Origin: Limimaricola sp. G21655-S1
Lineage (GTDB): Bacteria; Pseudomonadota; Alphaproteobacteria; Rhodobacterales; Rhodobacteraceae
Reading direction: 5' to 3'
DNA length: 42,464 nucleotides
Assembly (NCBI RefSeq): GCF_027213785.1
Contig: NZ_JAPWGO010000023.1
Span: 1 to 42,464, forward strand
This document shows positions 5,015 to 41,776 of this stretch, one piece after another. Position numbers and translations under genes: made by a program. Within the stretch, counting starts at the first letter, position 1. Each line of letters opens with the position of its first letter. The notes under the pieces were generated by a model that made no database searches, was not told the origin of the DNA, and saw only the letters and a program-made list of their open reading frames with translations.

Positions 5015-5040
5015 GGAACCGGCGGGCACGCCGGCCTGTT
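5015..5040 (+). promoter_or_regulatory. EcfG-like promoter candidate for treZ (imperfect)
   Basis: GGAAC at 5015-5019 is followed, after 18 bases, by GTT at 5038-5040, i.e. GGAAC-N17-TGTT against the consensus GGAAC-N16/17-CGTT. It lies 28 bases before the treZ start. The spacer contains a hairpin-forming repeat (CCGGCG / CGCCGG, 5019-5034). Confidence 0.45.
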
Positions 5041-5067
5041 CGCGCTACAGGGGCTAAGAGGACCATC

Positions 5068-6831
5068 ATGACCAAGAACGACACGCCGCCGGCGGCAGGG
5101 GCGGCCGCATCTCGCAATCGCTGGGGCGCGCGGCCCGATGGAACGGGCCAGTGGCAATTCGGCCTCTGGGCCCCCGCGGCCAAGAAGGTCGCCCTTTGGC
5201 TCGACGGCTCCGAAACGCCCATGACCCAGGATGATGACGGCTTCTGGAGCCTCGCGGCCAAGGCCGAGCCGGGTCTCGAATACGCCTTCGTCATCGACGG
5301 CGAACGCCGTCCCGATCCGGCCGCGCGGCAGCAGGCGGGCGACGTGCATGGCCCCTCGCTGCTGGTCGATACCGCAGCCCGGGAGTGGCGCTCGGAATGG
5401 AGCGGACGCGCTTGGGACGAGGCGGTGATCTACGAGATGCATGTCGGCACCTTCACCAAGGAAGGTACCTTCGCCGCCGCCGCGAAACGGATGCAGGAGC
5501 TGGCCGATCTCGGCATCACCGCGATCGAGCTGATGCCGGTGGGCCAGTGGCAGGGCGCGCGCGGCTGGGGCTATGACGGCGTGCTGCCTTACGCGCCGCA
5601 CCCGGCCTATGGCCGCCCCAAGGACATGCAGGAATTCGTCGAGGCGGCGCAGGCCGCGGGGATGATGGTGATCCTCGACGTGGTCTACAATCACTTTGGC
5701 CCCGACGGCGCCTATCTCCATGCCTATGCGCCCGAGTTCTTCGAAGAAGAGCGCCACACGCCTTGGGGCGCGGCGATCGACTTCACCGAACCGGCCGTGC
5801 GCGAATTCTTCATCGAGAACGCGATCTACTGGCTGCGCGACTATAGGCTCGACGGGCTCAGGCTCGACGCTGTGCACCAGATCATCGACCCCTCGCCGCA
5901 TCATTTCCTCGTCGAACTGGGCGAACGGGTGCAGGCGCTCGATCTCGGGCGGCCGCTGCACCTGATCACCGAGGATGAGCGCAACGAGCCCGAGCTGCGC
6001 GACACCGGCTGCTACGTCGCGAGTTGGAACGACGACTACCATCACTCGGTGCACACCGCGCTCACCGGCGAGTCCGAGGGGTATTACGCCCCGTTTGCGC
6101 ATGATCCGATCGGCGATCTGGTCCTGTCGCTGACCCGGGGCCATGTCGAGGAGGGCCAGCCCCGCCACGGCAAAGAAACCCGCCGCGGCCGTCCGGCATC
6201 GCATTTGCCGTGGACCGGTTTCGTCAATTCCAACCAGACCCATGATCAGGTCGGCAACCGGGCCCTGGGCGACCGGCTGATCTCGCTTGCCGATCCGCGC
6301 GGGGTCGAGGTGGCGCATGCGATGCTGCTGACCTCGCCCTTCATCCCGATGCTGTTCATGGGCGAAGAGGTGGGCGAGATCGCGCCCTTCCTGTTCTTTT
6401 GCGACCACGAGGGCGAGCTGGCGCGGCTTACCCGCGAGGGGCGGCAGAGGGAGTTCAAGGATTTCCTGAGCTTTGGCGAGGAAGTGCCGGACCCGAACGC
6501 CCCGGAGACCTTCGAACGCTCGCGCCCGTTCCAAGGCGATCCGGCGCATATGGAGCATTGGCGCGACCTCACGCGGCGCTTGCTGTCGCTGCGCGCCGAG
6601 CGCATCGTACCCTTGATGAAATCGGGCCGGGCCGGGCCCGCGCGCGTCACCCGCACCGGGCCGCGCGCGATCTCCGCCTGCTGGCCCTTCGCGGAGGGGC
6701 TCGTCGTGGCGCGCATCAATCTCGGTTCTCCACCCGACACCCCGCCCACGGCCGAGCCCGAGGATTTCACCATCGGCGATCCCGCCGCCGATCCCTTTGC
6801 CTTTTCCCTGATCGTGAGCCCGCATAAATGA
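5068..6831 (+). CDS. treZ: Malto-oligosyltrehalose trehalohydrolase
   Basis: A GH13 enzyme of 587 residues that cuts the bond next to the terminal trehalosyl unit made by TreY, releasing free trehalose in the cytoplasm. The N terminus (about 25-100) is the E-set domain with the typical FGLWAPAAKKV start. The TIM barrel carries the nucleophile D267 (in RLDAVH), the acid/base E302 (ITEDER) and D393 (QTHDQVGNR). The ATG at 5068 is chosen because the family N terminus begins here and AGAGGA precedes it; upstream in-frame sequence is unlike the family. It is the first gene of treZ-treY, with a 4-base ATGA overlap to treY, and is probably transcribed from the EcfG-like promoter just upstream. Confidence 0.95.
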   Translation: MTKNDTPPAAGAAASRNRWGARPDGTGQWQFGLWAPAAKKVALWLDGSETPMTQDDDGFWSLAAKAEPGLEYAFVIDGERRPDPAARQQAGDVHGPSLLVDTAAREWRSEWSGRAWDEAVIYEMHVGTFTKEGTFAAAAKRMQELADLGITAIELMPVGQWQGARGWGYDGVLPYAPHPAYGRPKDMQEFVEAAQAAGMMVILDVVYNHFGPDGAYLHAYAPEFFEEERHTPWGAAIDFTEPAVREFFIENAIYWLRDYRLDGLRLDAVHQIIDPSPHHFLVELGERVQALDLGRPLHLITEDERNEPELRDTGCYVASWNDDYHHSVHTALTGESEGYYAPFAHDPIGDLVLSLTRGHVEEGQPRHGKETRRGRPASHLPWTGFVNSNQTHDQVGNRALGDRLISLADPRGVEVAHAMLLTSPFIPMLFMGEEVGEIAPFLFFCDHEGELARLTREGRQREFKDFLSFGEEVPDPNAPETFERSRPFQGDPAHMEHWRDLTRRLLSLRAERIVPLMKSGRAGPARVTRTGPRAISACWPFAEGLVVARINLGSPPDTPPTAEPEDFTIGDPAADPFAFSLIVSPHK

Positions 6832-9236: not shown

Positions 9237-9248
9237 TCCTCGGACCAA

Positions 9249-9273
9249 GGAACCGGGCTGCCGTTGCCGCGTT
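9249..9273 (+). promoter_or_regulatory. EcfG-type general-stress promoter for glgX
   Basis: Exact GGAAC (9249-9253), 16 bases, CGTT (9270-9273). It lies between treY and glgX, leaving a leader of about 135 bases. The -10 sits inside a hairpin-forming repeat with 8-base arms (GGCTGCCG 9256-9263 / CGGCAGCC 9278-9285), which may act as operator or as the treY terminator. Confidence 0.7.
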
Positions 9274-9413
9274 GCTGCGGCAGCCTCCAATCCGTGCGGG
9301 GGCCGTTTGCGCGTGCCCCGCATCTCCAAGTTCCACCCCCTCCGGCGCATGCCCTCGCGCCGGTCAGCCGCGCCGCTCGTTTTCGAGCGCCGCCACGGAG
9401 TTCAGACATCCCG

Positions 9414-11573
9414 ATGGCCAAGGACATCCAACCGAACCTGCCCAGCTTCGATCTCGCAGCCTCGCGCTCGGACGAGCTGGGCGCGAATTACGACGGCTAC
9501 GGCACCAATTTCGCGCTCTGGTCCGAGAATGCGACCCGGGTGCAGCTCTGCCTCTTCGACGACGAGGGCAAGGAGCAGATCGCCTGCCTCGACATGCCGC
9601 GCATGGAAGGCGGGATCTGGCATGGCTACCTGCCCGATATCGGACCGGGCCAGGTCTATGGCTACCGGGTGCACGGCCCGTGGGCGCCGGAAGAGGGGCA
9701 CCGCTTCAACCCCAACAAGCTGCTGCTTGACCCCTATGCCTGCGAGCTGATCGGCGAGATCAAGTGGGACCCGGCGCTGTTCGGCTACACCCAACCGGGC
9801 GACGACCTTCAGGGCCCGGACCCGCGCGATTCCGCGCCCTTCATGCCCAAGGGCGTGGTCGTCGACACCGATTTCGACTGGGAGGCCGACAGCGCGCTGC
9901 GCCGCCGCTGGCAGAACGGGCTGATCTACGAAACCCACGTCAAGGGCGCGACGATGCGCCACCCGGACGTGCCCGAGGAGGATCGCGGCACCTTCGCGGG
10001 TCTCGCCTCCGACGCCTTCATCGACCACCTGACCCGGATCGGCGCCAGCGCGGTCGAGCTGCTGCCGATCCACGCCTTCGCCAATGACGGTCATCTCGTC
10101 GACAAGGGGCTGTCGAACTACTGGGGCTACAATACCCTGTCCTTCTTCGCGCCGCACAAGCCCTACTTGAAATCGGGCTTCTACCGCGAGGTGAAGCAGG
10201 CGGTGAAGAAGTTCCACGCCGCCGGTCTCGAGGTGATCCTCGACGTGGTCTACAACCACACCTGCGAGGGCAACGAGATGGGGCCGACCCTGTCGTTCCG
10301 CGGCATCGACAACGCCTCGTACTACCTGCTGTCGCCCGAGAACCCGCGCCACAGCTTCGACACCACCGGCACCGGCAACACGCTCAACGTGGCGCATCCG
10401 ATGGTGCTGCGCATGGTGCTCGACAGCCTGCGCTACTGGGTGCAGGTGATGCATGTCGACGGCTTCCGCTTCGATCTCGCCTCGACGCTGGGCCGCGAGG
10501 CGCAGGGTTTCGAGCGCGAGGGCTCGTTCTTCGCGGCGATCCGGCAGGACCCGGTGCTTTCCAAGGTCAAGCTGATCGCAGAGCCGTGGGACATCGGCGA
10601 TGGCGGCTACCAGGTCGGTGGCTTTCCCTGGCCGTTCCGCGAATGGAACGACAAGGCCCGCGACGACATTCGCGCCTTCTGGCGCCGCGACAAAGGGTTG
10701 ATCCCGGCGATGGCGGAGCGGCTCTTGGGCTCCCCGGTGCAGTTCAACCACTCGCACCGGCCCGCCACCTCGTCGATCAACTTCATCGCCGCGCATGACG
10801 GCTTCACGCTGTGGGACACAGTGTCCTACAACGAGAAGCACAACGAGGCGAATGGCGAGGACGGCAAGGACGGCCATTCCAACAACCTCTCCGACAACAT
10901 GGGTGTCGAGGGCGCGACAGACGACGAGACCGTCAACGACAGCCGGGTGCGCCGGGTCAAGGCGATGCTGGCGACGCTGCTGATGAGCCAGGGCGTGCCG
11001 ATGATCCTTGCCGGCGACGATTTCGGCCAGACCCAGAACGGCAACAACAACGCCTATTGCCAGGACAACGAGACCACCTGGCTCGACTGGGAGAACCGGC
11101 GCGACGAGATCACCAGCGCCGTGGCTGAGTTGATGGCATTCCGAAAGGGGGAGGGCGGTCTGGCGCGGCTGCGCTTCGCCCGCGCGCCCGAGGATGCCCC
11201 CGATGGCGGCCCGACCGTCACCTGGCGCCACCCCGAGGGGCGCCGGATGGAGCCGGGCGATTGGGAAAACCCCGAGCTGAGCTGCTTCGGCATGCGGCTG
11301 GTGCCGCATAGCGAGGGGCGCGAGGTGATGGTGGTGCTGAACTCGGGCGACAATTGCGAGTTCAAGCTGCCCAAGGGCGGCTGGCGCCGCGCCATCGACA
11401 CCACGCTCGACCCGGTGAGCTGCGACACGCCCGAACAGGGTGTGGTCGGCGTCGGCTGGCAATCGGTGGTGGTCTGGGTGCCGGACCCCGAGGCGGAGAT
11501 CGAAGCCGAGGACGAGGTCGCCGAGGCTGATGCCGCCGGCGAGAGCGAGGCCGCCAGCGCCGAAAAGGGCTGA
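9414..11573 (+). CDS. glgX: Glycogen debranching enzyme (GlgX/TreX type)
   Basis: A GH13 isoamylase-type enzyme of 719 residues that hydrolyses alpha-1,6 branches of glycogen, supplying linear maltodextrin to TreY and TreZ. The N-terminal E-set (about 15-130, GTNFALWSENA) precedes the barrel. The nucleophile is D354 (FRFDLAS), the acid/base E390 (IAEPWD) and the third acid D462 (AAHDGF). The last 30 residues are a strongly acidic, low-complexity tail that is not part of the enzyme fold. The start at 9414 matches the family N terminus; the nearest site, GGAG, is rather far (13 bases). Its own stress promoter lies at 9249-9273, so it can be expressed apart from treZY. Confidence 0.93.
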   Translation: MAKDIQPNLPSFDLAASRSDELGANYDGYGTNFALWSENATRVQLCLFDDEGKEQIACLDMPRMEGGIWHGYLPDIGPGQVYGYRVHGPWAPEEGHRFNPNKLLLDPYACELIGEIKWDPALFGYTQPGDDLQGPDPRDSAPFMPKGVVVDTDFDWEADSALRRRWQNGLIYETHVKGATMRHPDVPEEDRGTFAGLASDAFIDHLTRIGASAVELLPIHAFANDGHLVDKGLSNYWGYNTLSFFAPHKPYLKSGFYREVKQAVKKFHAAGLEVILDVVYNHTCEGNEMGPTLSFRGIDNASYYLLSPENPRHSFDTTGTGNTLNVAHPMVLRMVLDSLRYWVQVMHVDGFRFDLASTLGREAQGFEREGSFFAAIRQDPVLSKVKLIAEPWDIGDGGYQVGGFPWPFREWNDKARDDIRAFWRRDKGLIPAMAERLLGSPVQFNHSHRPATSSINFIAAHDGFTLWDTVSYNEKHNEANGEDGKDGHSNNLSDNMGVEGATDDETVNDSRVRRVKAMLATLLMSQGVPMILAGDDFGQTQNGNNNAYCQDNETTWLDWENRRDEITSAVAELMAFRKGEGGLARLRFARAPEDAPDGGPTVTWRHPEGRRMEPGDWENPELSCFGMRLVPHSEGREVMVVLNSGDNCEFKLPKGGWRRAIDTTLDPVSCDTPEQGVVGVGWQSVVVWVPDPEAEIEAEDEVAEADAAGESEAASAEKG

Positions 11574-11599
11574 TCCCCAGACGAAACCCCGAAAAGGAA

Positions 11600-11633
11600 C
11601 GCCCCCGCGTCGCGAGAGGCGGGGGCGCTTTCT
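11600..11633. terminator. Terminator after glgX, probably bidirectional
   Basis: A 9-base stem, CGCCCCCGC (11600-11608) / GCGGGGGCG (11619-11627), is followed by CTTTCTT. On the minus strand the flank reads TTCCTTTT, so it can also end the convergent flavoprotein transcript. Confidence 0.8.
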
Positions 11634-11654: not shown

Positions 11655-12959
11655 TCAGCCCATGGCTTCCTCGGAGGTCGATGGGTGCACGCCCAGCGCC
11701 CGGCGCATCGTTGCGCGGTCGGGGCGGTGCAGCAACATCAGCGCGGCCCAGCCGATCGCCTCGTGCGCGCCCTCGGCCACGAGCGAGACCGACGTGACCT
11801 CCGCCTCGGAGCCGCCCAGCCCCCAATAGTCCTGCGCGGCATCCGAGCGTAGCGCCGCCGATAACGGAGACAGCGTGTTCTCTTCGAAGATCTCCTCCTT
11901 CGAGGGTTGCCCGACCTCGCCCACTGGCGGCAGCACATAGGCGGATGTGGCGACGTGGCGCAGATCGACCGGCGGGCGGTAATCCCCGAAGAGCTGCAGC
12001 GCCAGCGTCTCGCCATCGCTCGAGGCGACCGGCGTCAGCGGCAACCGGTCGGCACAGTCGCCCACCGCATGCAGGCCGGGGAGCGAGGTCTCGAACCGCT
12101 CGTCGATCCGGATCACCCCCTTTTCGGTAAGCGAAACGCGCGCCCTCAAATCGCCCAGCGCCTCGAGGTTCGGCGCCCGCCCGGTGGCGGCCACGACCTT
12201 GTCGACCGACAGCACGGTATCGGCATCAAGCATGAGCTCCAGCCCGTCATCGCCGCGCCGCACCGCCTCGGGCGTGCAGGAGGTGACGATCCGGATCCCC
12301 TGCGCCTGCATGTTGGCCTGACCGACCAGAGCGGCATTCTCAGAGAACTCGGTCAGCACGCGCTCGGTATCCGTCACCAGCGTCACGCGCACCCCCATGG
12401 CGGCATGGATCGCCGCCATCTCGCAGCCGATATAGCCGCCGCCGATGATCGCCATGGCGCGCGGCAGCTCGGTCCAGTTCAGCACCTCGTCGCTGTCGCA
12501 GGCCAACTCGGCGCCGGGCATGTCGGGCTTGACCGGGTGGCCACCGGAGGCCAGCACGATGCGCGGCGCCCGCAGGCGCTGGCCCTGGATCGTGACTTCG
12601 CCCGGCGCGGTCAGCTCGGCCGTCTCTTCGATCAGCGTGACACCCGCCTCGTGCAGCTTGTCGCGGTAGCTCTGACGGATGCCTTCGAGCTTGGCGGCAC
12701 GCGCGGCGCAGAGCCGCGGCATGTCGACCTGCGGGGTCGGACCGAGAAGCCCGGCACGGGTCAGCCCGGTGCCCCGATGCAGGGCGTCGGCCACGGTCCA
12801 GAGCATCTTCTTCGGCACGCAGCCGCGATTGACGCAGGTGCCGCCCAACTTGTCGCGCTCGATCAGCGCGATCTTGCGCCCGAGCCCCGCCGCGTGGCGC
12901 GCAAAGGACAGCCCGGCGGAGCCGCCTCCGATGACGATCGCGTCGTAGTCCGTATCCAT
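11655..12959 (-). CDS. gor: Glutathione-reductase-like FAD/NAD(P) disulfide oxidoreductase
   Basis: A 434-residue class I pyridine nucleotide-disulfide oxidoreductase. It has the FAD-binding GGGSAG (11-16), the redox-active pair C42 and C47 in GGTCVNRGCVPKK, a second dinucleotide motif (GGGYIGCE), and near the C terminus HPSTSEE, whose histidine (H425) and glutamate form the base that activates the thiol in the partner subunit. These match glutathione reductase better than dihydrolipoamide dehydrogenase. It is slightly shorter than typical Gor (about 450), so a related thiol reductase is possible. It probably keeps glutathione reduced in the cytoplasm. It is divergent from the stress-type SDR, and the shared interval has EcfG-like motifs facing both ways. 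Confidence 0.8.
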   Translation of the reverse strand: MDTDYDAIVIGGGSAGLSFARHAAGLGRKIALIERDKLGGTCVNRGCVPKKMLWTVADALHRGTGLTRAGLLGPTPQVDMPRLCAARAAKLEGIRQSYRDKLHEAGVTLIEETAELTAPGEVTIQGQRLRAPRIVLASGGHPVKPDMPGAELACDSDEVLNWTELPRAMAIIGGGYIGCEMAAIHAAMGVRVTLVTDTERVLTEFSENAALVGQANMQAQGIRIVTSCTPEAVRRGDDGLELMLDADTVLSVDKVVAATGRAPNLEALGDLRARVSLTEKGVIRIDERFETSLPGLHAVGDCADRLPLTPVASSDGETLALQLFGDYRPPVDLRHVATSAYVLPPVGEVGQPSKEEIFEENTLSPLSAALRSDAAQDYWGLGGSEAEVTSVSLVAEGAHEAIGWAALMLLHRPDRATMRRALGVHPSTSEEAMG

Positions 12960-12987: not shown

Positions 12988-13013
12988 AACCGAAGGGCAG
13001 GGGCGCGGGTTCC
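12988..13013 (-). promoter_or_regulatory. EcfG-like promoter candidate for the gor-like gene (imperfect)
   Basis: On the minus strand GGAAC (13013-13009) is followed after 18 bases by GTT (12990-12988), i.e. GGAAC-N17-GGTT. It lies about 30 bases before the start codon. One -10 position and the spacer depart from the best consensus. Confidence 0.4.
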
Positions 13014-13069: not shown

Positions 13070-13094
13070 GGAACCCCGTCTTCCCGCTGCCGTT
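13070..13094 (+). promoter_or_regulatory. EcfG-type general-stress promoter for the stress SDR
   Basis: Exact GGAAC (13070-13074), 16 bases, CGTT (13091-13094). It is 55 bases before the start codon of the SDR gene. Confidence 0.75.
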
Positions 13095-13149: not shown

Positions 13150-14004
13150 ATGACCGAACCCAAGGACATGCCCGCGCAGAGCCAGGATCACATGCCGGGC
13201 AACGAGCACGAGATGCATCCCGCCCCCGACTACCGCCCGCGCCATCCCGGCGTCGGCAAGCTCAAGGGCAAGGTCGCCCTCGTGACCGGTGGCGACAGCG
13301 GTATCGGCCGCGCCGTCTCGGTGCTCTTCGCGCGCGAGGGCGCGAAGCTCGCCATCGCCTATCTCGAAGAGGACCGGGACGCCGAGGAAACCAGGCGGCT
13401 GGTCGAGGAAGAAGGCTCCGAGGCGCTGCTGATCCGTGGCGATCTGGGCCAGAAGGAGCATTGCGAAAGCGCCGTCGCCAAGACCATGGAGCGATACGGC
13501 CAACTTGACGTGCTGATCGTCAATGCCGCGCAGCAATGGCTCGATGACGGGCTCGAGGACATCTCGGGAGAGCGGCTGCGCCGCACCATCGACAGCAACA
13601 TCATGCACCCGATGTTCATCACCCAGGCCGCGCTGCCGCATCTGAAGGAGGGCGACGCGGTGGTCTACACCACTTCCGTCAACGCCTTCAAAGGCAATGC
13701 CGGTCTCGTCACCTATTCGACCACGCGCGGCGCGACGCTGGCCCTGTCGCGCTCGATGTCCTCGGCGCTGGCCGAGAAGGGCATCCGCGTGAACGCCGTG
13801 GCACCGGGGCCGATCTGGACCCCCTTCATCCCGGGCTCGATGCCGCCCGACAAGGTCGAGGGCTTCGGCAAGAACACGCCCCTGGGCCGGCCCGGGCAGC
13901 CTTGGGAGGTGGCGACTTCCTACCTGTTCCTCGCCTCGTCCGACGGCAACTACTTCACCGGCCAGACGCTGCACCCCAATGGCGGCAAGATCGTCGGGGC
14001 CTGA
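13150..14004 (+). CDS. Stress-type SDR oxidoreductase (YghA/YhdG-like) with altered active site
   Basis: A 284-residue short-chain dehydrogenase of the group with a long hydrophilic N-terminal tail (1-38, rich in M, H and P) seen in general-stress proteins such as YghA and Bacillus YhdG/YdaD. The NAD(P) motif is TGGDSGIG (about 53-60), with NAAQQ where the family has NAG. The active site has S176 and Y189, but the YxxxK lysine is arginine (YSTTR, R193). That lysine normally lowers the tyrosine pKa and holds the nicotinamide ribose. The start is the ATG at 13150, with CGGGAG ten bases upstream. An exact EcfG-type promoter precedes it, agreeing with the family's stress induction. Confidence 0.85.
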   Translation: MTEPKDMPAQSQDHMPGNEHEMHPAPDYRPRHPGVGKLKGKVALVTGGDSGIGRAVSVLFAREGAKLAIAYLEEDRDAEETRRLVEEEGSEALLIRGDLGQKEHCESAVAKTMERYGQLDVLIVNAAQQWLDDGLEDISGERLRRTIDSNIMHPMFITQAALPHLKEGDAVVYTTSVNAFKGNAGLVTYSTTRGATLALSRSMSSALAEKGIRVNAVAPGPIWTPFIPGSMPPDKVEGFGKNTPLGRPGQPWEVATSYLFLASSDGNYFTGQTLHPNGGKIVGA

Positions 14005-19401: not shown

Positions 19402-19566
19402 TCAGGCCGCGAGGCCGATGATCCCGAACAGCACCAGCAGGAACAGCACCAGCGCGATGATGGCGAGCCACTTGGCCCCGGTAAGCGCGGCGCCGGAAAT
19501 CCGGCCCATGCCCAGAAGACCGGCGACGGCAGCGATGGCGAGGAGGATCAGAATCCATTCGATCAT
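19402..19566 (-). CDS. DUF1328 small membrane protein (UPF0391 family)
   Basis: A 54-residue protein, the usual length of the family. It has two hydrophobic segments (about 3-18 and 33-53) separated by a glycine-rich turn (GMGRISGAALTGAKW), expected to form an inner-membrane hairpin. The molecular role of the family is not known; members are often induced by stress. The ATG at 19566 begins with the standard MIEWILILLAIAA. It sits between rimM and trmD, where most bacteria have nothing, with its own EcfG-like promoter upstream and a strong hairpin downstream. Confidence 0.9.
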   Translation of the reverse strand: MIEWILILLAIAAVAGLLGMGRISGAALTGAKWLAIIALVLFLLVLFGIIGLAA

Positions 19567-19617: not shown

Positions 19618-19642
19618 AACACGGATGGGTAAGGCGGGTTCC
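19618..19642 (-). promoter_or_regulatory. EcfG-like promoter for the DUF1328 gene
   Basis: On the minus strand GGAAC (19642-19638) is followed after 17 bases by GTT (19620-19618), i.e. GGAAC-N16-TGTT, one base from consensus. It lies in the gap just after the rimM stop and about 50 bases before the DUF1328 start. Confidence 0.6.
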
Positions 19643-23580: not shown

Positions 23581-23716
23581 GGCGGTCCTTTCCGACCGTT
23601 GCGTCAGTCCCGGTTGCCCCATGCGGTTGCGCGCCCGTGGGCGCAACGCGCTGACGGACGGCGATCCCCGCAATGGCCGGGGACCGGAAAGCCTGAGCTT
23701 CCGGGTTTGGGGCTCG

Positions 23717-24695: not shown

Positions 24696-24720
24696 GGAAC
24701 GATTTCGTGAGCGCGGCGTT
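24696..24720 (+). promoter_or_regulatory. EcfG-type general-stress promoter for the 24-residue peptide
   Basis: Exact GGAAC (24696-24700), 16 bases, CGTT (24717-24720). It lies 41 bases before the start codon of the small gene at 24762. Confidence 0.75.
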
Positions 24721-24761: not shown

Positions 24762-24836
24762 ATGCGCAACATCATTTACATCATCGGTCTCGTCGTCGTC
24801 GTCATCGCCGTTCTCTCGCTGATCGGCCTGGTCTGA
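24762..24836 (+). CDS. 24-residue single-span membrane peptide
   Basis: A very short gene encoding MRNIIYIIG followed by a valine/isoleucine/leucine stretch and ending IGLV. The peptide is essentially one transmembrane helix with Arg2 and Asn3 at the N-terminal end. Reasons to believe it: an ATG with GAAGGG about five bases upstream, an exact EcfG-type promoter 41 bases upstream, no competing gene in the interval, and similarity to tiny hydrophobic proteins annotated in other Rhodobacterales (from memory). The stop is two bases from the convergent ArsR gene's stop. Function is unknown; small stress-induced membrane peptides often bind and tune larger membrane complexes. Confidence 0.7.
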   Translation: MRNIIYIIGLVVVVIAVLSLIGLV

Positions 24837-29302: not shown

Positions 29303-29962
29303 TCAGCTGTTCGGGGTGATGATGATCTCGACCCGGCGGTTCTGGCGACGGCCCTCGGGGCTCAGGTTCGAGGCGATGGGCTGGTCCTCGCCGCGGCCGA
29401 TGGCGCGGACGCGCGACGGCGAGACGCCGGCCGAGGTCAGCACCGAGGCGACGGCCTGAGCGCGGCGCTCGGAGAGCTGCTGGTTGTACGCGGCCGAACC
29501 GGTGTTGTCGGCATGGCCCACCACGTTGACCGTGGTGTTGGGATAGTTGTTGAGCGACCCCGCGATGGCGCGCAGGTCGGATTGCAGCGATCCGGTCAGC
29601 TGGGCGCTGTCGGTGGCGAACAGGATGTCCTGCGGCAGGGTCACGACCAGCTGCTCGCCGGTGTTGACGATGCCCACATTCGAGCCGAGCTGGTTGCGCA
29701 GTTCGGCTTCCTGACGGTCGAGCAGGGCACCGGTACCGGCACCGGCGGCACCGCCGAGGGCCGCACCGACGGCGGCGCGGCGCAGCCGCTCGTCGCTGTC
29801 ATCGGCGGTCAGCGCGCCCACGGCCGCGCCGAGACCGGCACCGACGAGGGCACCGCGGCGGGTGTTGGCGTTCGGGTCGGGGTTGTTCGGAGTGACGGGC
29901 TGGCAAGCGGCCACGGCAAGGGCCGACACGGTGACGAGCGCGAGGGGAAGCTTGGTGATCAT
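29303..29962 (-). CDS. OmpA-family outer-membrane lipoprotein (YiaD-like)
   Basis: A 219-residue lipoprotein. The signal peptide ends in the lipobox AVAAC, with lipidation at C20. After a short Pro/Asn-rich linker there is a glycine-zipper segment (about 37-82, GALVGAGLGAAVGAL and AAVGAALGGAAGAG), then a peptidoglycan-binding OmpA domain (about 105-219) with the NVVGHADNTGSAAYNQQLSERRA core and the RRVEI end. It probably anchors the outer membrane to the cell wall. An exact EcfG-type promoter lies about 90 bases upstream, so it is a likely envelope component of the stress response. A strong terminator follows. Confidence 0.92.
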   Translation of the reverse strand: MITKLPLALVTVSALAVAACQPVTPNNPDPNANTRRGALVGAGLGAAVGALTADDSDERLRRAAVGAALGGAAGAGTGALLDRQEAELRNQLGSNVGIVNTGEQLVVTLPQDILFATDSAQLTGSLQSDLRAIAGSLNNYPNTTVNVVGHADNTGSAAYNQQLSERRAQAVASVLTSAGVSPSRVRAIGRGEDQPIASNLSPEGRRQNRRVEIIITPNS

Positions 29963-30050: not shown

Positions 30051-30075
30051 AACGTAGCCTTGATAGGTGGGTTCC
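30051..30075 (-). promoter_or_regulatory. EcfG-type general-stress promoter for the OmpA-like lipoprotein
   Basis: On the minus strand, exact GGAAC (30075-30071), 16 bases, CGTT (30054-30051). It leaves a leader of about 85 bases. Confidence 0.72.
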
Positions 30076-31811: not shown

Positions 31812-32791
31812 GCATTCCCCGCATCCTCGGCATCGGCAACGCCATCGTCGACGTCTTCGCGCAGGCCGATGACAGCTTTCTCGACCTGATGGGCATCGAG
31901 AAGGGCATCATGCAACTGGTCGAGCGCGAGCGCGGCGAAATGCTCTACGGCGCCATGGAGGAGCGGCGGCAGGCGCCAGGGGGCTCCGTCGCCAACACGC
32001 TGGCGGGCTTGGGCAATCTCGGGCTCGAGACGAGCTTCATCGGACGGGTGCGCGACGATGCTCTGGGCCGCTTCTATGCCGCGAGCATGGAGGAGGGGGG
32101 CACCCGCTTTCCCAATCCGCCGGTTTCGGGCGGCGAGCTGCCGACCTCGCGCTCGATGATCTTCGTGAGCCCGGATGGCGAGCGTTCGATGAACACCTAT
32201 CTCGGCATCTCCGCCGAGCTCGGGCCCGACGACGTCTCCGATACGGTGGCGGGCCAAGCGGGGCTGCTTTATCTCGAGGGGTATCTCTACGACAAGCCCA
32301 AGGGCAAGCAGGCCTTCGAACGCGCGGCGCGGCTGGCCCAGCAGGGCGGTGGCATGGCCGGGATCGCGCTGTCGGACCCATTCTGTGCCGACCGGCACCG
32401 GGCCGATTTCCAGAAGCTGGTGCGCGAGCTCGATTTCGTCATCGGCAACGAGCATGAATGGGAAAGCCTCTACGAATGCCGCCTTGACGAGGCGCTGACC
32501 CGCGCCGCGGCCGAGTGCCGGCTCGTGGTCTGCACCCGATCCGGTGCGGACGTGGTGCTGATCCGGGGCGAGGAACGCGTCGTGGTCCCGGTGCGCAAGG
32601 TGACGCCGGTCGATGCCACCGGGGCGGGGGACCTGTTCGCTGCCGGATTCCTCTACGGTATCGCCACGGACCGGGATCTGGAGACGGCGGGACGCATGGG
32701 CTGCGTCGCCGCGGCCGAGGTGATCTCGCATTTCGGAGCGCGACCCGAGACGGATCTCAAGGCGCTCTTCGCGCAGGCCGGGCTGCTCTAG
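31808..32791 (+). CDS. PfkB-family adenosine kinase-like enzyme
   Basis: A 327-residue ribokinase-family sugar/nucleoside kinase, annotated as adenosine kinase in relatives. The N-terminal ILGIGNAIVD and the PGGSVANTLAGL motif bind the substrate, and the C-terminal signature DATGAGDLFAAGF contains the anion hole and the catalytic base D275. In the adenosine kinase role it would convert adenosine to AMP. It is translationally coupled to nth and overlaps the PAP2 gene tail-to-tail by four bases. Confidence 0.85.
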   Translation: MSIPRILGIGNAIVDVFAQADDSFLDLMGIEKGIMQLVERERGEMLYGAMEERRQAPGGSVANTLAGLGNLGLETSFIGRVRDDALGRFYAASMEEGGTRFPNPPVSGGELPTSRSMIFVSPDGERSMNTYLGISAELGPDDVSDTVAGQAGLLYLEGYLYDKPKGKQAFERAARLAQQGGGMAGIALSDPFCADRHRADFQKLVRELDFVIGNEHEWESLYECRLDEALTRAAAECRLVVCTRSGADVVLIRGEERVVVPVRKVTPVDATGAGDLFAAGFLYGIATDRDLETAGRMGCVAAAEVISHFGARPETDLKALFAQAGLL

Positions 32792-33513
32792 TCCTTGGCG
32801 TCTTCCGCGGGCTCGATCTGGCCCCGGCGCTGCAGCCATTGCGCGATCAGAAGGCACAGCACGGCCCAGCCCGCGCCGGCGGTCCAGCCGGCGATCACGT
32901 CGGTGGGCCAATGCACCCCGAGATAGACCCGGCTGGCACCGACGAGCCCGGTCAGGATGATCGCGCAGGTCATGATGTAGACCTTGATGATGCGGCGCGG
33001 CTCGAGCCGCGACAGCATCACCGCGAGCGTCAGATAGGTCACCGCCGAAAGCATGGTGTGCCCTGAGGGAAAACTCGCCGTGTAGACGTAGGAGCCATGC
33101 GGCACGAGGTCGGGGCGGGCACGCTCGAAGAAGATCTTGGCGGTACGGCTCAGCAGCGTGCCGCTGCCGATCGCGATCAGCAGAAACCACATGGTGCGGG
33201 TATGGCGCGACAGCGCGAGATACCCCGCCACGCCGGCCGTCAGCAGGCTCAGCCAGGCCACGCCACCCAGCGCCGTCATGTCGCGCGCCATCTCCTCGAC
33301 CCAGTGCGAGCCGATCGGATCGCTCAGATCGGCTGGGTTGCGCAGCGCCAGCAGGATGGCCTCGTCGAATGCCGCCGTATCGCCCTCGACCACCTCCCCG
33401 GCGAGCAGGAAGAAGCCCAGCGCGGCCAGCGACACGAGAAACAGCAGCACCATCCACAATTCGGGACGGCGCCGCAGCCGGGCGGGGATGTCTGTGGCAG
33501 CGGGATCAGGCAT
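32788..33513 (-). CDS. PAP2-family membrane phosphatase
   Basis: A 241-residue membrane phosphatase with about six membrane segments and all three catalytic motifs: KIFFERARP (126-134), PSGH (149-152) and SRVYLGVHWPTD (194-205), with H152 and H201 as the catalytic histidines. Such enzymes dephosphorylate phosphatidate, undecaprenyl diphosphate or related lipids on the periplasmic side. The substrate is unknown. GAGGGA lies right before the ATG. A weak EcfG-like match (GGAAC 33549-33545, N16, TGTT) lies so close that its start point would cut into the ribosome binding site, so it is not listed as a promoter. Confidence 0.92.
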   Translation of the reverse strand: MPDPAATDIPARLRRRPELWMVLLFLVSLAALGFFLLAGEVVEGDTAAFDEAILLALRNPADLSDPIGSHWVEEMARDMTALGGVAWLSLLTAGVAGYLALSRHTRTMWFLLIAIGSGTLLSRTAKIFFERARPDLVPHGSYVYTASFPSGHTMLSAVTYLTLAVMLSRLEPRRIIKVYIMTCAIILTGLVGASRVYLGVHWPTDVIAGWTAGAGWAVLCLLIAQWLQRRGQIEPAEDAKD

Positions 33514-33558
33514 GTCGTTCCCTCAACAACGGGGCCGGGGCAGGGTTCCGGAGCCGCC

Positions 33559-36091: not shown

Positions 36092-36101
36092 GGAGGAAGC
36101 G

Positions 36102-36467: not shown

Positions 36468-36515
36468 GGCCGGGCAGGGCGTCGCCGCGCCGAGTTCGGG
36501 AAGGCGCGATGGGGC

Positions 36516-37523
36516 TCAGGCCTTTTGCGAGGCGGCGGCGCGGATCGCATCGGCGATGCGGCGCGGCTCGGGGCTGTCGCCCCTGGCGGGCCAGCCCTCG
36601 CGCTGGGCGGTGCGGTCGCCGTCGGTCGCCTCGGTCTGGTCGTGGAACAGGACCATCCGGGTCGGGTAGGGCAGATCGACGCCCTTCTCGTTCAGCGCGT
36701 TGTAGGTGTCGCGGATCACCCGACCCCAGACATGCACCACGTCGGCGCGCGCCGGCTGGGTCCACCAGCGCAGGCGGATCGTGTTGCCGTCGGCATCCAT
36801 GCCCCACGGGATCGCCTCGGGCGCGGGATCGGCGAGCACGCCGTCGCAGTTCCCCGCAGCCTCGAGCATGATCCTGCAGGCCTCGTCGATATCGTCCGAG
36901 CAGCCGATCAGCACGTCGTATTGCGACCGGCGCTTGTCGAAGGCGGTGTTGACCACCACCGCGTCGGTGTAGATGTCCGAGTTCGGGATCACCACGCGGC
37001 GGCCGTCATAGGTCTTGATCAGGGTGGCGCGGGTCTCGATCCGCTCGACCGTACCTTCGTGACCGCCCGAGACGATCTGGTCGCCCACCTCGAAGGGCTG
37101 GCGGATCAGGATCAGGATGCCCGCCAGCATGTTCTGCAGGATGTCCTTGAAGGCGAAGCCGATCGCGACCGAGCCGATCCCGAGGCCCGCGAAGAGATCG
37201 CCCGGCGAGATCGACGGCGCGACGATGGTGACGGCGAGCATGATTCCGAGAATCGTCACCAGCCAGCGCAGCAGGCTTGCGCCGACATCGCCGAGGTTGT
37301 CGCGGCCACGCTTCCTGCCAGAGCGACGCACCAGCGCCGCCACGCCGCGGGCGAGAAACCAGAAGACGACCAGAAGCACCAGCGCCACGGCGATGTTCGG
37401 CAGCAGCCGGAAGAAGCCGTCTGCCCAGGCGTCGATCTTCTCGAATATGTTGCCGGTGTCGGCATCGACACCGGCGAAGCTGTCGATATCCTCGCGCGGG
37501 GCGGTCTGCGTCTCTTCTTCCAT
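36516..37523 (-). CDS. Small-conductance mechanosensitive channel (MscS family)
   Basis: A 335-residue channel subunit. Three membrane helices are seen at about 38-60, 85-106 and 111-142; the last is the pore helix with small residues in GLGIGSVAIGFAFKDILQNMLAG. It is followed by the beta domain (GDQIVSGGHEGTVERIETRATLIKT, given here by its start) and a mixed C-terminal vestibule with a charged tail. It releases solutes upon osmotic downshift. It lies 30 bases after the ABC ATPase on the same strand and is probably in one transcript with it. Confidence 0.93.
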   Translation of the reverse strand: MEEETQTAPREDIDSFAGVDADTGNIFEKIDAWADGFFRLLPNIAVALVLLVVFWFLARGVAALVRRSGRKRGRDNLGDVGASLLRWLVTILGIMLAVTIVAPSISPGDLFAGLGIGSVAIGFAFKDILQNMLAGILILIRQPFEVGDQIVSGGHEGTVERIETRATLIKTYDGRRVVIPNSDIYTDAVVVNTAFDKRRSQYDVLIGCSDDIDEACRIMLEAAGNCDGVLADPAPEAIPWGMDADGNTIRLRWWTQPARADVVHVWGRVIRDTYNALNEKGVDLPYPTRMVLFHDQTEATDGDRTAQREGWPARGDSPEPRRIADAIRAAASQKA

Positions 37524-37553
37524 GCGGTCCCTCCTGTCGGCGGAGGGGCAACC

Positions 37554-38504
37554 TCAGGCGGCGGAGACGGGTTCCTTGGCCTTGGAGGTGAGTTGCAGGA
37601 ACACGTCCTCCAGATCCGCCTCCTCGGTTTTCACGTCGGAAAGCCGCATGCCGCCCGCGCGGATCGCGTCGAGCACCGTGCCCGCGCTCATCAGGCGCGC
37701 GTCGTAGCTGAAGGCCAGCGCCCCGCCCGGCCGCTCGGTGACGCTGACGCCGTCGGGCAGGGCGGGGATCACAGCGGGGCCCTCGGGGGTCACCACCAGC
37801 GTCTTGCCGCTGACACGGCCGACCAGATTGGCGGTGGTGTCGCGGGTGATGACGCGGCCTTGGTCGATGATCGCGATCTCGTCGCACATCTCTTGCGCCT
37901 CTTCGAGGTAATGGGTCGTCAGGATGATCGTCGTGCCCTGCTCGTTCAGCTTGCGGACGTTGCGCCAGAGCATGTTGCGCAGCTCGATGTCGACGCCCGC
38001 CGTCGGCTCGTCGAGCACCAGCACGCGGGGGGAGTGCACCAGCGCCTTTGCAAGCAGCAGCCGCCGCCGCATGCCGCCCGAGAGCGAACGGGCATAGGCG
38101 TCGGCCTTGTCGGCGAGGCCGACGAGATCGAGAAGCTCCATGGTGCGACGCTGGGATTTCGGCACGCCCCAGAGCCCCGCCTGCACGTCGAGCGCGCCGC
38201 GCGGGGTGAAGAACGGGTCGAGGACGAGTTCCTGCGGCATCACGCCGATCGCCGCGCGTGACTGGCGGGGGTTCACGTCCTGATCGAAGCCCCAGATCTT
38301 CACCCGCCCTTCGGATTTGAGCACCAAGCCAGCCATGATGTTGATCATCGTCGACTTGCCCGCCCCGTTGGGGCCCAGGAGGCCGAAGATCGAGCCCGCC
38401 GGAATCGACAGGTCGACACCGTCGAGCGCCAGCTTGGCGGGGGATCTGGCGCTGGGCGCATAGGTCTTCTTCAGGCCGGTGATCTCGATGGCGGCGTCGG
38501 TCAT
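37554..38504 (-). CDS. ABC transporter ATP-binding protein without a partner
   Basis: A 316-residue ABC ATPase of the drug/polysaccharide export type (CcmA/YadG-like). Walker A is GPNGAGKST (44-52), followed by a Q-loop (VMPQELVLDPFF), the signature LSGGMRRRL, Walker B VLVLDEPTAGVD and the switch histidine in ILTTHYLEEA. The C-terminal 70 residues are the extra domain common in ABC-2 exporters. No ABC-2 permease is adjacent: the next gene downstream is an MscS channel, upstream is a divergent zinc-finger gene. Its membrane partner must be encoded elsewhere. Confidence 0.92.
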   Translation of the reverse strand: MTDAAIEITGLKKTYAPSARSPAKLALDGVDLSIPAGSIFGLLGPNGAGKSTMINIMAGLVLKSEGRVKIWGFDQDVNPRQSRAAIGVMPQELVLDPFFTPRGALDVQAGLWGVPKSQRRTMELLDLVGLADKADAYARSLSGGMRRRLLLAKALVHSPRVLVLDEPTAGVDIELRNMLWRNVRKLNEQGTTIILTTHYLEEAQEMCDEIAIIDQGRVITRDTTANLVGRVSGKTLVVTPEGPAVIPALPDGVSVTERPGGALAFSYDARLMSAGTVLDAIRAGGMRLSDVKTEEADLEDVFLQLTSKAKEPVSAA

Positions 38505-38612
38505 GGCTCGAGTCCTTTCGCGTCTTGTCCCTGCGGGCGGGGCGGCTAGAATGTAGCGCGATCAGGGCCGGGTCCATGCCCGGCCGCTCCCGTTTGCAAG
38601 GCAAGGCCCCTC

Positions 38613-38855
38613 ATGACACTTCCCGCGCCCGAGACCAAGATCGTCGACACATGGCGCATCGCCTGCGACGGCGGCAGCGCAGGGCTCGGCCATCCGCGCG
38701 TCTGGCTGATGATCCCGCACGATACCGGCTGGGTCGACTGCTCCTATTGCGACGCGCGCTATGTTCACCGCGATTTCGCCGAGAAGGGCGCGGAGGGGCT
38801 GGACGACATCACCCGCGGGCAGGATCGCTCGGGCCAGGAGAACGAGACCCGCTGA
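38613..38855 (+). CDS. Zinc-finger protein of the zf-CHCC (NDUFS6-like) family
   Basis: An 80-residue protein with the full C-H-C-C ligand set: C18, H27 (in GHPRVWLMI), C43 and C46 (CSYC), the fold of the mitochondrial complex I subunit NDUFS6. In alphaproteobacteria these proteins are thought to be complex I accessory subunits. Sequence after about 55 is charged and unstructured. It is divergent from the ABC gene and lies 98 bases before polA; two palindromes separate it from polA. Confidence 0.9.
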
Positions 38856-38872
38856 GGCGGGCGCTCCGGTCC

Positions 38873-38918
38873 CAATTTCCTTGCAAAGGAAATTGCCCGA
38901 ATTCTTGCAAGAATTCGG
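38873..38918. repeat. Tandem palindromes between the zinc-finger gene and polA
   Basis: First unit: CAATTTCCTT (38873-38882) and AAGGAAATTG (38886-38895) with a GCA loop. Second unit: a perfect 22-base palindrome (38897-38918) centred on TTGCAA, beginning CCGAATTCTTG. The units share a TTGCA core and are AT-rich in GC-rich surroundings. They may form a double terminator for the zinc-finger gene (TTT follows the second) or be copies of a dispersed repeat. Confidence 0.75.
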
Positions 38919-38953
38919 TTTGAATTGACACGACATCGCGAAAGAGGGCGGGC

Positions 38954-41749
38954 ATGACGCAATTCGGCAAGGGGTGCCACCTGCACCTGATCGACGGCTC
39001 GGCCTTCATCTTCCGCGCCTATCACGCACTGCCACCGCTGACCCGCAAATCGGACGGTTTGCCGGTTGGCGCGGTGTCGGGCTTCGTCAACATGCTGCAG
39101 CGCTATATCGACGGCAATACCGGCCCCGACGCCGCCACCCATGTCGCGGTGATCTTCGACAAGGGCTCGCATACCTTCCGCAACGATCTCTACGACCTCT
39201 ACAAGGCCAATCGCGAGGCGATGCCCGAGGATCTGCGGCCGCAGATTCCGCTGACGCGTCGCGCCACCGAGGCGTTCAACATCGCCTGCAAGGAGAAGGA
39301 AGGCTTCGAGGCCGACGACATCATCGCGGCGCTCTCCTGCCAAGCTCGGGACGCCGGCGGCCGCGTCACCATCATCTCCTCCGACAAGGACCTGATGCAG
39401 CTCGTCGGCGACGGGGTCGAAATGCTCGACCCGATGAAGAACCGCCGCATCGACCGCGACGGCGTGTTCGAGAAATTCGGCGTCTGGCCCGACCGTGTCG
39501 TCGATGTACAGGCGCTCGCGGGCGATTCGGTCGATAACGTTCCCGGCGCGCCCGGCATCGGCATCAAGACGGCGGCGCTCCTGATCAACGAGTTCGGCGA
39601 TCTGGAGACGCTTCTGGAGCGCGCCGGCGAAATCAAGCAGCCCAAGCGACGCCAGACCCTGATCGAGCACGAAAAACAGATCCGGTTGTCGAAGCAGTTG
39701 GTGGCGCTCGATTGCGACTGCCCGCTCGACTTCACGCTCGACGATCTCGAGATCCGCGAGCCGGACCCCGAGGTGCTGCTGGGCTTCCTCGCCGAGATGG
39801 AGTTCCGCACCATCACCCGCCGAGTTGCCGAGAAACTGGGGCAGGAGGCGCCGGTGGTGCCCGAGGTGGCCGCGACCGAGGCGGTCGAGCCCGAGCCCGA
39901 GGCCCCCTTCGATCATGCCGGTTATCAAAAGGTGACGACGGCCGAGGAGCTGCAGGTCTGGATCGACGCGATCCGCGAGCTGGGCCATGTCGCGGTCGAC
40001 ACCGAGACCACGAGCCTCGACGAGATGCGTGCCGAGCTCGTCGGCATCTCGCTGGCGCTGACGCCGGGCCATGCCTGCTACATACCCCTGTGCCACAGCG
40101 AGGGTGGCGACGATCTGTTCGGGGGTGCCCAGCTCTGCGCGGGACAGATGCCGATGGAGGAGGCGCTGGCGATGCTGAAGCCGGTGTTGGAGGATGCCTC
40201 GATCCTCAAAATCGGTCAGAACATGAAATACGACCTGAAGATTTTCGCCGGTCTTGGGATCGACGTGGCGCCCTTCGACGACACGATGCTCCTGAGCTAC
40301 GCGATGCATGCGGGGCTGCATGGGCACGGCATGGACACGCTCAGCGAGCGCTATCTCGGCCATCTGCCGATCCCGATCAAGCAGGTGATCGGCACCGGCA
40401 AATCGGCGGTGACATTCGATCGGGTCGGCATCGACGAGGCGGTGAAATACGCGGCCGAGGACGCCGACATCACGCTGCGCCTGTGGAAGCGGTTCAAGCC
40501 GGAACTGCACCGCAACCGAGTCACCACCGTCTACGAGACGCTGGAGCGCCCGCTGGTGCCGGTGCTGGCGCGGATGGAGCGGGCGGGCGTCGAGGTCGAC
40601 CGCGAGGTGCTGTCGCGCATGTCCAATGCCTTCGCGCAGAAGATGGCGGGGCTGGAGGCCGAGATCCACGAGAAGGCCGGACGGCCCTTCAATGTCGGGA
40701 GCCCCAAGCAACTCGGCGAGATCCTGTTCGACGATCTCGGCCTGCCCGGCGGAAAGAAGGGCAAGACCGGGGCCTATGCGACGGGGGCCGACATCCTCGA
40801 AGACCTCGCCACCGAACACGAGCTACCGCGCCTCGTGCTGGATTGGCGGCAGATCTCGAAGCTGAAATCGACCTATACCGACAGCCTGCAGGAGCACATC
40901 CACCCCGACACCGGGCGGGTACACACGTCCTATTCGATCGCGGGCGCCAACACCGGCCGCCTCGCCTCGACCGACCCGAACCTGCAGAACATCCCGATCC
41001 GCACCGAGGAGGGCCGCCGCATCCGCGAGGCCTTCGTCGCGCCCAAGGGGCGCACCCTCGTCTCGCTCGACTACAGCCAGATTGAGCTGCGCATCCTCGC
41101 CCACATGGCGGGGATCGAGGAGTTGAAGCAGGCGTTCCGCGAGGGGCAGGACATCCACGCCGCCACCGCGTCCGAGATGTTCAACGTGCCTCTGGACGAA
41201 ATGACACCCGAGATTCGGCGCCAGGCCAAGGCGATCAACTTCGGCGTGATCTATGGCATCTCGGGCTTCGGCCTCGCTCGCAACCTGCGGATTCCGCGCG
41301 AGCAGGCGCAGGGCTTCATCGACCGCTACTTCGAGCGTTTCCCGGGCATCCGCACCTACATGGACGAGACCACCGCCTTCGCGAAGGCCAATGGCTATGT
41401 CCAGACGCTGTTCGGGCGGCGCATCAACACGCCCGAGATCAACGCCAAGGGGCCGGGGGCGGGGTTCGCCAAGCGCGCCGCGATCAACGCGCCGATCCAG
41501 GGCACGGCGGCCGACATCATCCGCCGGGCGATGATCCGCATGGACGATGCCATCGCCGCCGTGCCCTCGGCGCGGATGCTGCTGCAGGTGCATGACGAAC
41601 TGCTGTTCGAGGTCGACGAGGCCGAGGCCGAGGCGCTGATCCCCATCGCCCGCGAGGTGATGGAGAACGCGGCGCGGCCCGCGGTGCATCTCGACGTGCA
41701 GCTGCTGGCCGAGGGCGGGCAGGGTCGGACCTGGGCCGAGGCGCACTGA
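38954..41749 (+). CDS. polA: DNA polymerase I
   Basis: A 931-residue DNA polymerase I for Okazaki-fragment processing and repair. The 5'-3' exonuclease spans about 1-290 (HLIDGSAFIFRAYHAL start). The proofreading domain (about 320-515) keeps D349 and E351 in VAVDTETTS, so it is likely active. The polymerase domain (about 545-931) has motif A with D706 (LDYSQIELR), the O helix RRQAKAINFGVIYG, and motif C with D881 (QVHDELLFEV). Length is normal. GAGGG precedes the ATG. The EcfG-type promoter of the next gene begins three bases after its stop. Confidence 0.98.
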   Translation: MTQFGKGCHLHLIDGSAFIFRAYHALPPLTRKSDGLPVGAVSGFVNMLQRYIDGNTGPDAATHVAVIFDKGSHTFRNDLYDLYKANREAMPEDLRPQIPLTRRATEAFNIACKEKEGFEADDIIAALSCQARDAGGRVTIISSDKDLMQLVGDGVEMLDPMKNRRIDRDGVFEKFGVWPDRVVDVQALAGDSVDNVPGAPGIGIKTAALLINEFGDLETLLERAGEIKQPKRRQTLIEHEKQIRLSKQLVALDCDCPLDFTLDDLEIREPDPEVLLGFLAEMEFRTITRRVAEKLGQEAPVVPEVAATEAVEPEPEAPFDHAGYQKVTTAEELQVWIDAIRELGHVAVDTETTSLDEMRAELVGISLALTPGHACYIPLCHSEGGDDLFGGAQLCAGQMPMEEALAMLKPVLEDASILKIGQNMKYDLKIFAGLGIDVAPFDDTMLLSYAMHAGLHGHGMDTLSERYLGHLPIPIKQVIGTGKSAVTFDRVGIDEAVKYAAEDADITLRLWKRFKPELHRNRVTTVYETLERPLVPVLARMERAGVEVDREVLSRMSNAFAQKMAGLEAEIHEKAGRPFNVGSPKQLGEILFDDLGLPGGKKGKTGAYATGADILEDLATEHELPRLVLDWRQISKLKSTYTDSLQEHIHPDTGRVHTSYSIAGANTGRLASTDPNLQNIPIRTEEGRRIREAFVAPKGRTLVSLDYSQIELRILAHMAGIEELKQAFREGQDIHAATASEMFNVPLDEMTPEIRRQAKAINFGVIYGISGFGLARNLRIPREQAQGFIDRYFERFPGIRTYMDETTAFAKANGYVQTLFGRRINTPEINAKGPGAGFAKRAAINAPIQGTAADIIRRAMIRMDDAIAAVPSARMLLQVHDELLFEVDEAEAEALIPIAREVMENAARPAVHLDVQLLAEGGQGRTWAEAH

Positions 41750-41751
41750 AC

Positions 41752-41776
41752 GGAACCGCGCCCCTCGCGCATCGTT
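41752..41776 (+). promoter_or_regulatory. EcfG-type general-stress promoter for the FMN-binding protein
   Basis: Exact GGAAC (41752-41756), 16 bases, CGTT (41773-41776), directly after polA. It lies 54 bases before the start of the stress protein. Confidence 0.75.

Follow-up and report, generated by a model that had tools for sequence, protein, structure and literature searches.

We analyzed a 42,464-nt stretch of DNA from Limimaricola sp. G21655-S1 (order Rhodobacterales), one whole contig of a 4.23-Mb genome and hereafter called the window, which contains five exact matches to the motif GGAAC-N16-CGTT. We are highly confident that these sites act as promoters of EcfG, the general stress sigma factor of Alphaproteobacteria. 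The predicted regulon is canonical, and its putative promoters pass every sequence test that had power. A first-pass annotation of the same sequence had listed the five sites and read them as EcfG targets. Its coordinates and strands are all correct, its interpretation is supported by the data below, and the motif matches the EcfG consensus GGAAC-N16-17-C/GGTT in the available part of the publication (PMC12148442).

The first-pass annotation had made its reading depend on an EcfG-type sigma factor being encoded in the genome. We found phyR, nepR, an extracytoplasmic function (ECF) sigma factor gene, and an HWE kinase gene at one locus on contig C55, in the order phyR (minus strand), nepR, ecfG, HWE/HisKA_2 kinase, phospholipase D-like gene, and a 28-residue open reading frame (ORF) with an exact site. 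NepR (C55:87254) matched PF18557 with 46.3 bits (cut-off 25.7), while PhyR contained PF22029, PF22233, and PF00072 domains and scored 366.6 bits against NCBIfam NF006623 (cut-off 240). The 185-aa ECF sigma gene lies immediately after nepR and scored above the cut-off of NF009198, a model titled just "RNA polymerase sigma factor." Because this model name is generic, we named the gene EcfG from its position beside nepR and phyR. Its product is identical across 185 residues with those of Limimaricola soesokkakensis and L. variabilis, also Rhodobacterales. The kinase matched PF07568 and PF07536, and its score of 203.7 bits against the PhyK equivalog model was far under the cut-off of 750. A GGAAC-N17-CGTT motif is located 38 nt upstream of the phyR start. 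We compared the ecfG loci of 36 named relatives. An exact site was present 200-310 nt before ecfG in 29 of them, on the phyR-facing strand in 26, with all seven Limimaricola loci among these.

Two small ORFs were noted. The 28-residue ORF near the phyR locus (L060 6504-6590, contig C55) is hydrophobic, starts 27 nt after its exact site, and has a strong ribosome-binding site. Elsewhere, a 52-residue ORF on contig C573 (L010 1441-1599) gave a NepR-like match of 23.1 bits, below the cut-off of 25.7; no phyR or ecfG was recognized nearby in a 3-kb stretch that was read by eye rather than scanned.

Five exact sites in the window compare with a mean of 0.26 and a maximum of 2 in 100 dinucleotide shuffles, in line with the roughly 0.3 chance matches estimated in the first-pass annotation. 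The published consensus, with either spacing and either C or G, yielded seven window sites against 0.67 expected. Allowing one mismatch gave 16 N16 matches against 7.57 expected, a count reached by none of 100 shuffles, and 10 N17 matches against 7.06 expected, a total that 21 of 100 shuffles also reached. Since matches with one mismatch often arise by chance, they are weaker evidence as a class, and the TGTT near matches before treZ, DUF1328, and PAP2 are suggestive only. TGTT and GGTT variants of the motif were nonetheless seen repeatedly upstream of orthologues. As had been claimed, the five exact sites all lie outside the genes called by our script, and each points at what follows it: four face the next called gene, while the fifth faces a 24-residue ORF that is followed by a convergent called gene of the arsR type.

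Genome-wide, we found 64 exact sites with N16 spacing and 24 with N17 (88 together). Spacings of 10 to 22 gave 308 sites in total, and the 11 spacings other than N16 and N17 averaged 20, making the N16 excess highly significant (Poisson P = 4e-15). The comparison of intergenic with coding sites that the first-pass annotation had proposed placed 44 of the 64 N16 sites in intergenic sequence (39 of 59 outside the window), compared to 6 of 23 off-spacing controls (Fisher P = 0.0005); the controls were the first 23 listed off-spacing sites, on contigs C11 and C22. The non-coding share of the sequence is approximately 10-12%, as measured in the window and 18 loci. Half of the N16 sites (32 of 64) were intergenic and faced a gene start within 100 nt, compared to 2 of 23 off-spacing sites (P = 0.0004), and only 1 of 20 coding N16 sites faced a start within that distance. 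Hand inspection added the window micropeptide and two genes missed by the caller (L013, L020) as faced genes. Among the 11 of 24 N17 sites that were classified, nine were intergenic and facing a gene. Of the 44 intergenic sites, 5 fall in the window, which covers 1% of the genome (Poisson P = 1e-4 for a single window, approximately 0.01 over all windows); it is a site-rich stretch, but was chosen for that very richness. An extended -10 element, with G after CGTT, was considered and is not claimed (28 of 41 intergenic facing sites versus 10 of 20 coding sites, P = 0.26).

Genomes lacking the anti-sigma factor NepR served as a natural control for conservation of the sites. Using a threshold of E up to 0.001, NepR was detected in 258 of 390 Rhodobacterales genomes and, in a family sample spread across genera, in 89 of 198. 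A PhyR locus has been published for Rhodobacter sphaeroides (PMC5830050), and two for Rubellimicrobium thermophilum, also of the Rhodobacterales, in a 2025 study (PMC12148442), according to the parts of both papers available. The suggestion that many Rhodobacterales lack the system was therefore overstated, and possessing such a regulon is not exceptional in the order: the PhyR-NepR-EcfG system is not generally absent from it, but patchy.

Promoter conservation before three of the window's genes was scored as a motif within 150 nt that had no more than one mismatch, with the window's own locus included in the counts. Nearly all genomes (54 of 61) have the OmpA-like lipoprotein gene. Among its 30 best loci, the motif was present in 11 of 19 from NepR-positive genomes and 0 of 11 from NepR-negative genomes (P = 0.0016, or 0.0035 without L166, a NepR-negative locus where no proper start was found). 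The short-chain dehydrogenase/reductase (SDR) gene (E up to 1e-60) occurred in 13 of 61 genomes, all NepR-positive (P = 2e-5), with the motif in 10 of 14 loci; SDR matches at greater distance (41-49% identity) are not necessarily orthologues. The pyridoxamine 5'-phosphate oxidase-like (PNPO-like) gene (E up to 1e-20) was likewise confined to NepR-positive genomes (11 of 61, P = 1e-4), and 10 of its 11 loci carried the motif.

The 24-residue ORF encodes MRNIIYIIGLVVVVIAVLSLIGLV, a hydrophobic sequence predicted to form a membrane helix. Homologues (E up to 1) were found in 58 of the 198 family genomes, although several of the weakest sit within long open frames and may be chance matches. Within 120 nt upstream, 24 of the 30 best loci, the window's included, carried the motif with no more than one mismatch (exact in 12), compared to 1.9% of shuffled upstream sequences. 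A further set of 29 new loci, 28 of them with a readable start (L241 was dropped), had the motif in 22 of 28, exact in 11, compared to 1.6% for shuffles. Peptide and NepR co-occur (E up to 0.03; both in 39 genomes, peptide only in 6, NepR only in 50, neither in 103; P = 9e-11). Loci from four of the six peptide-only genomes were inspected: the near-complete G111 and G132 lacked the motif, and the less complete G155 (92%) and G196 (64%) carried it. Across the class, a 29-member profile recovered the family from 30 of 385 genomes, which represent 24 of 277 genera and 20 family codes, showing that it is widespread but patchy.

Among 51 equal-length sequences out of the 58, mean nonsynonymous divergence was 0.23 versus 0.58 for synonymous divergence, with the nonsynonymous value lower in 1264 of 1275 pairs, a pattern indicating that selection acts on the micropeptide as a protein. 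The 29 aligned members are 22-24 residues long, with M1, Y6, G9, and V12 invariant. In Pfam and NCBIfam the window member had no match, and other members matched weakly at best (best E 0.12 and 0.012). We attempted to assign a function by neighborhood, which failed because the 109 neighbor proteins at 58 loci had no dominant family (ArsR type 7, EamA 6, LysR 4). Since the neighboring genes vary, the conserved unit is the promoter with the peptide. A residue-pattern search of the 36 named ecfG loci found no micropeptide nearby. Four hits fell on plasmids, and three of them were inspected. The Bosea copy has an exact site upstream, and the 120 nt before each of two Methylocystis copies (L246, L247) lack the motif; these three plasmid records list no gene under the micropeptide match, in a gene table that is incomplete. 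Some genomes contain two adjacent copies (L104, L107; G188, G145, G048), with a near-exact motif before the first copy in L107. Under stress, the micropeptide most likely forms one membrane helix that alters either the properties of the membrane or a protein in it.

Another exact site, at C111:131155 (L017 2006-2030) outside the window, separates an OmpR-type regulator gene (L017 1320-1997; PF00072 and PF00486) from a match to the small RNA (sRNA) SorX, which is located 3' of that gene. The SorX match (RF02784, L017 2041-2111) scored 64.9 bits against a gathering cut-off of 46.6 and starts 11 nt past the last T of CGTT. The SorY model also matches at this position, below its cut-off (43 versus 111). 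This arrangement, in one genome, predicts a direct start for SorX by the stress sigma factor.

Based on the known pathway, we propose that NepR holds the sigma factor in unstressed cells. Stress sensed by the HWE/HisKA_2 kinase would lead to phosphorylation of PhyR, which would then take NepR away from the sigma factor, and the freed sigma factor would start transcription at GGAAC-N16/17-[C/G]GTT. This would switch on envelope and osmotic stress genes (OmpA-like lipoprotein, MscS-type channel, trehalose and glycogen enzymes), redox-type enzymes (SDR, gor-like, PNPO-like), and the 24-residue membrane micropeptide. The model takes sigma factor binding at the sites, the signals, the gene roles, and the steps from site to expression from that pathway. 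It builds on what was read from sequence, namely the sites, the regulators, the enrichment by spacing and intergenic position, several promoters conserved in NepR-positive relatives, and the peptide family with its promoter. We also lean toward a more specific proposal, in which the micropeptide is an unrecognized, widespread though patchily distributed member of the general stress regulon that keeps its EcfG promoter amid changing neighbors and alters the membrane or a membrane protein, and SorX has been captured by EcfG via a direct promoter.

Several observations weigh against assigning the sites to EcfG. Random occurrence of a short motif in GC-rich DNA would fit the 20 of 64 N16 sites that lie within called genes, near the 20 per spacing found elsewhere, as well as raw per-genome counts that hardly depend on NepR. 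Median counts were 14.3 sites/Mb in NepR-positive and 12.5 in NepR-negative genomes (P = 0.02; 72 of 198 rows were taken in), and whole-genome counts were rejected as a sigma factor test; we attribute the weak dependence to a dominant coding background. N17 sites alone are not enriched by count (24 versus 20, P = 0.21). Orientation toward the next gene was rejected as a discriminator, being shared by 41 of 44 intergenic N16 sites and by all 6 intergenic off-spacing sites; what does separate N16 sites from controls is an intergenic location and a short distance to the start. A reversed-pattern control (64 versus 28) was dropped in favor of the spacing control, since many relatives contain more matches to the reversed pattern than to the motif. 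Our gene-calling script missed at least three ORFs; the Fisher tests treat related genomes as independent, making their P values optimistic; and NepR-negative means no Pfam match, so that a divergent NepR may be missed. The R. sphaeroides NepR has just 25% identity, according to the available part of its description (PMC5830050). The exact site is missing from the examined stretch of 7 of the 36 named ecfG loci (L072, L082, L083, L085, L091, L092, L099), and the motif from 8 of 19 NepR-positive OmpA-like loci and 4 of 14 SDR loci. Even so, five sites against 0.26 expected, an N16 peak of 64 against 20, and promoters that are conserved before orthologues yet absent before the OmpA-like gene in NepR-negative genomes make chance hardly credible. 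It is also very improbable that the sites serve another ECF sigma factor, such as one of the RpoE/ChrR type. The motif agrees with that reported for EcfG in the available part of the 2025 study (PMC12148442), its presence before the OmpA-like gene follows NepR, and phyR itself carries it.

Of the five exact sites, the one before glgX is the least certain. It could be fortuitous, with glgX read from the upstream treZ/treY genes: the leader is long (141 nt), and most of the relatives examined lack the motif, their glgX overlapping or directly adjoining the preceding gene. The gene is present in 20 NepR-positive genomes but also in 10 of 31 NepR-negative ones, and an exact motif within 220 nt was found at 3 of 28 loci (28 examined of 30 fetched) with the window's included, or just 2 of the other 27 (G042, G006). 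In Sphingomonas melonis Fr1, glgX was tested as a putative indirect EcfG target, as described in the available portions of that work (PMC6599016). On the other hand, the window match is exact and intergenic, and all three exact-motif loci have a gap between glgX and the preceding gene. The five closest homologues (63-72% identity) include G042 and G006, and many of the other loci may be a glycogen-operon paralogue, which the host also has (C55, 56% identity). A fortuitous site is thus unlikely, while keeping an appreciable chance. For the micropeptide, the weak ribosome-binding site in the window (GAAGGGCAGCC before the ATG), the length of only 24 codons, and the lack of a known product would suit an untranslated ORF whose upstream site drives a non-coding RNA. 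The excess of synonymous over nonsynonymous divergence in nearly all pairs, together with the retained length and invariant residues, makes this improbable, and we retain the interpretation of a translated peptide.

Coordinates of the window features are listed in Table 1. The near matches before the DUF1328, treZ, and gor-like genes that had been reported earlier are all present, and the sites before the MscS-type and PAP2 genes are additions to that list.

Table 1. Predicted EcfG-type promoters, near matches, and the genes they precede in the window.
Feature	Position	Strand	Remarks
Exact EcfG-type promoter before glgX	9249..9273	+	Exact motif; least secure of the five
glgX, glycogen debranching enzyme	9414..11573	+	TIGR02100, 953 bits, cut-off 641
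Exact EcfG-type promoter before SDR gene	13070..13094	+	Exact motif
SDR oxidoreductase, PRK06701 type nearest	13150..14004	+	Pfam adh_short_C2; NCBIfam PRK06701 369 bits, under cut-off 413
Exact EcfG-type promoter before micropeptide ORF	24696..24720	+	Exact motif, kept in relatives
24-residue ORF, predicted single-pass membrane micropeptide, conserved family	24762..24836	+	
Exact EcfG-type promoter before OmpA-like lipoprotein gene	30051..30075	-	Exact motif
YiaD-type glycine-zipper/OmpA lipoprotein	29303..29962	-	NF053611, 239 bits, cut-off 175
Exact EcfG-type promoter before PNPO-like gene	41752..41776	+	Exact motif
PNPO-like protein	41831..42325	+	PF16242, 111 bits; GSP26-like protein of the first-pass annotation
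GGAAC-N17-GGTT before gor-like gene	12988..13013	-	28 nt before ATG 12959; divergent to SDR promoter
Pyridine nucleotide-disulphide oxidoreductase (gor-like)	11655..12959	-	PF07992
GGAAC-N17-GGTT before MscS-type gene	37550..37575	-	26 nt before gene; overlaps end of upstream ABC gene
MscS-type mechanosensitive channel	36516..37523	-	PF00924
Near match GGAAC-N17-TGTT before treZ	5015..5040	+	27 nt before ATG 5068
treZ, malto-oligosyltrehalose trehalohydrolase	5068..6831	+	TIGR02402, 641 bits, cut-off 539
Near match GGAAC-N16-TGTT before DUF1328 gene	19618..19642	-	
DUF1328 small protein	19402..19566	-	PF07043
Near match GGAAC-N16-TGTT before PAP2 gene	33525..33549	-	
PAP2-family protein	32788..33513	-	PF01569; start uncertain, 33513 or 33453

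Elsewhere in the genome, scans of ten targets and of a further set of ten proteins identified stress-type products, including OsmC, Cu/Zn superoxide dismutase, a ferritin-like protein that we read as Dps, an S30AE/cold-shock protein, and topoisomerase IB. Other targets were a BrkB-family membrane protein, a phospholipase D-like protein, a PQQ dehydrogenase, and an AI-2E transporter, and some had no family. Some further targets look housekeeping by sequence, and therefore not every intergenic site need be real. One exact intergenic site (L041 5442-5466) has no called gene near it on its strand and may be a chance match or belong to an unrecognized RNA; an Rfam scan of L041 gave no match. In the window itself, an Rfam "ffh sRNA" (RF01793, 60.7 bits, cut-off 35) lies at 23624-23675 on the minus strand just upstream of ffh, and the A and C runs at 42420-42464, at the contig end, are perhaps an assembly edge artefact.

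Collectively, these data allow a stress regulon to be predicted for a genus of Rhodobacterales from what were only promoter-like strings. The micropeptide gene, whose promoter tracks the sigma factor, is short enough that annotation can overlook it, and so it may be absent from published regulons. Its occurrence in 20 family codes would make tiny stress-induced membrane proteins testable in laboratory Alphaproteobacteria that carry the family. The SorX promoter, if true, would link general stress control to an sRNA so far known as a processed mRNA fragment. In the open literature searched, no text contained any of five core peptide strings, and among the papers listed no such peptide appeared in titles or abstract starts; among the Limimaricola and Roseobacter papers listed, none dealt with the general stress response by title. 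To the extent of these searches, two findings are new: the micropeptide family together with its retained promoter, and the predicted promoter of SorX.

PhyR-NepR-EcfG systems are represented by Caulobacter SigT, Sinorhizobium meliloti RpoE2, and Methylobacterium EcfG. The Limimaricola system matches them in its adjacent regulators, motif, stress-type targets, and promoter before phyR; no difference appears essential, the second, sub-threshold NepR-like ORF being the one peculiarity. The R. sphaeroides PhyR locus (RSP_1271-1274) belongs to the same order and shares the gene arrangement, but PhyR matters mainly for membrane stress there, according to the available part of the study (PMC5830050), whereas a broad stress regulon is predicted for Limimaricola. 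In S. melonis Fr1, the available portions of the regulon paper report treY/treZ/glgX, two MscS genes, and two ferritin-like genes as EcfG-dependent, target types that Limimaricola has in common, while giving the motif as GGAAC-N17-20-GTT; the micropeptide was not found in those portions (PMC6599016).

The micropeptide resembles E. coli YohP, which the available part of its description presents as a 27-residue stress-induced membrane protein that dimerizes via a glycine motif (PMC12719787), in size, single hydrophobic stretch, glycines, and stress link. It differs in its scores against the YohP model PF25659, which stayed below the model's threshold: 4 of 29 members matched at E up to 1 (best 0.12), the window member had no match, and no homology was detected. 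By analogy, a YohP-like mode of action is conceivable but rather unlikely. For SorX, Caulobacter GsrN provides a precedent for an EcfG-driven sRNA, as reported in the available part of that study (PMC5869019). According to the parts of two papers available, SorX of R. sphaeroides is cut from an ompR-type mRNA, and RNase E generates its mature 5' end (PMC6238624, PMC9438474). The Limimaricola match also lies downstream of an OmpR-type regulator gene, but it is preceded by an exact EcfG-type site.

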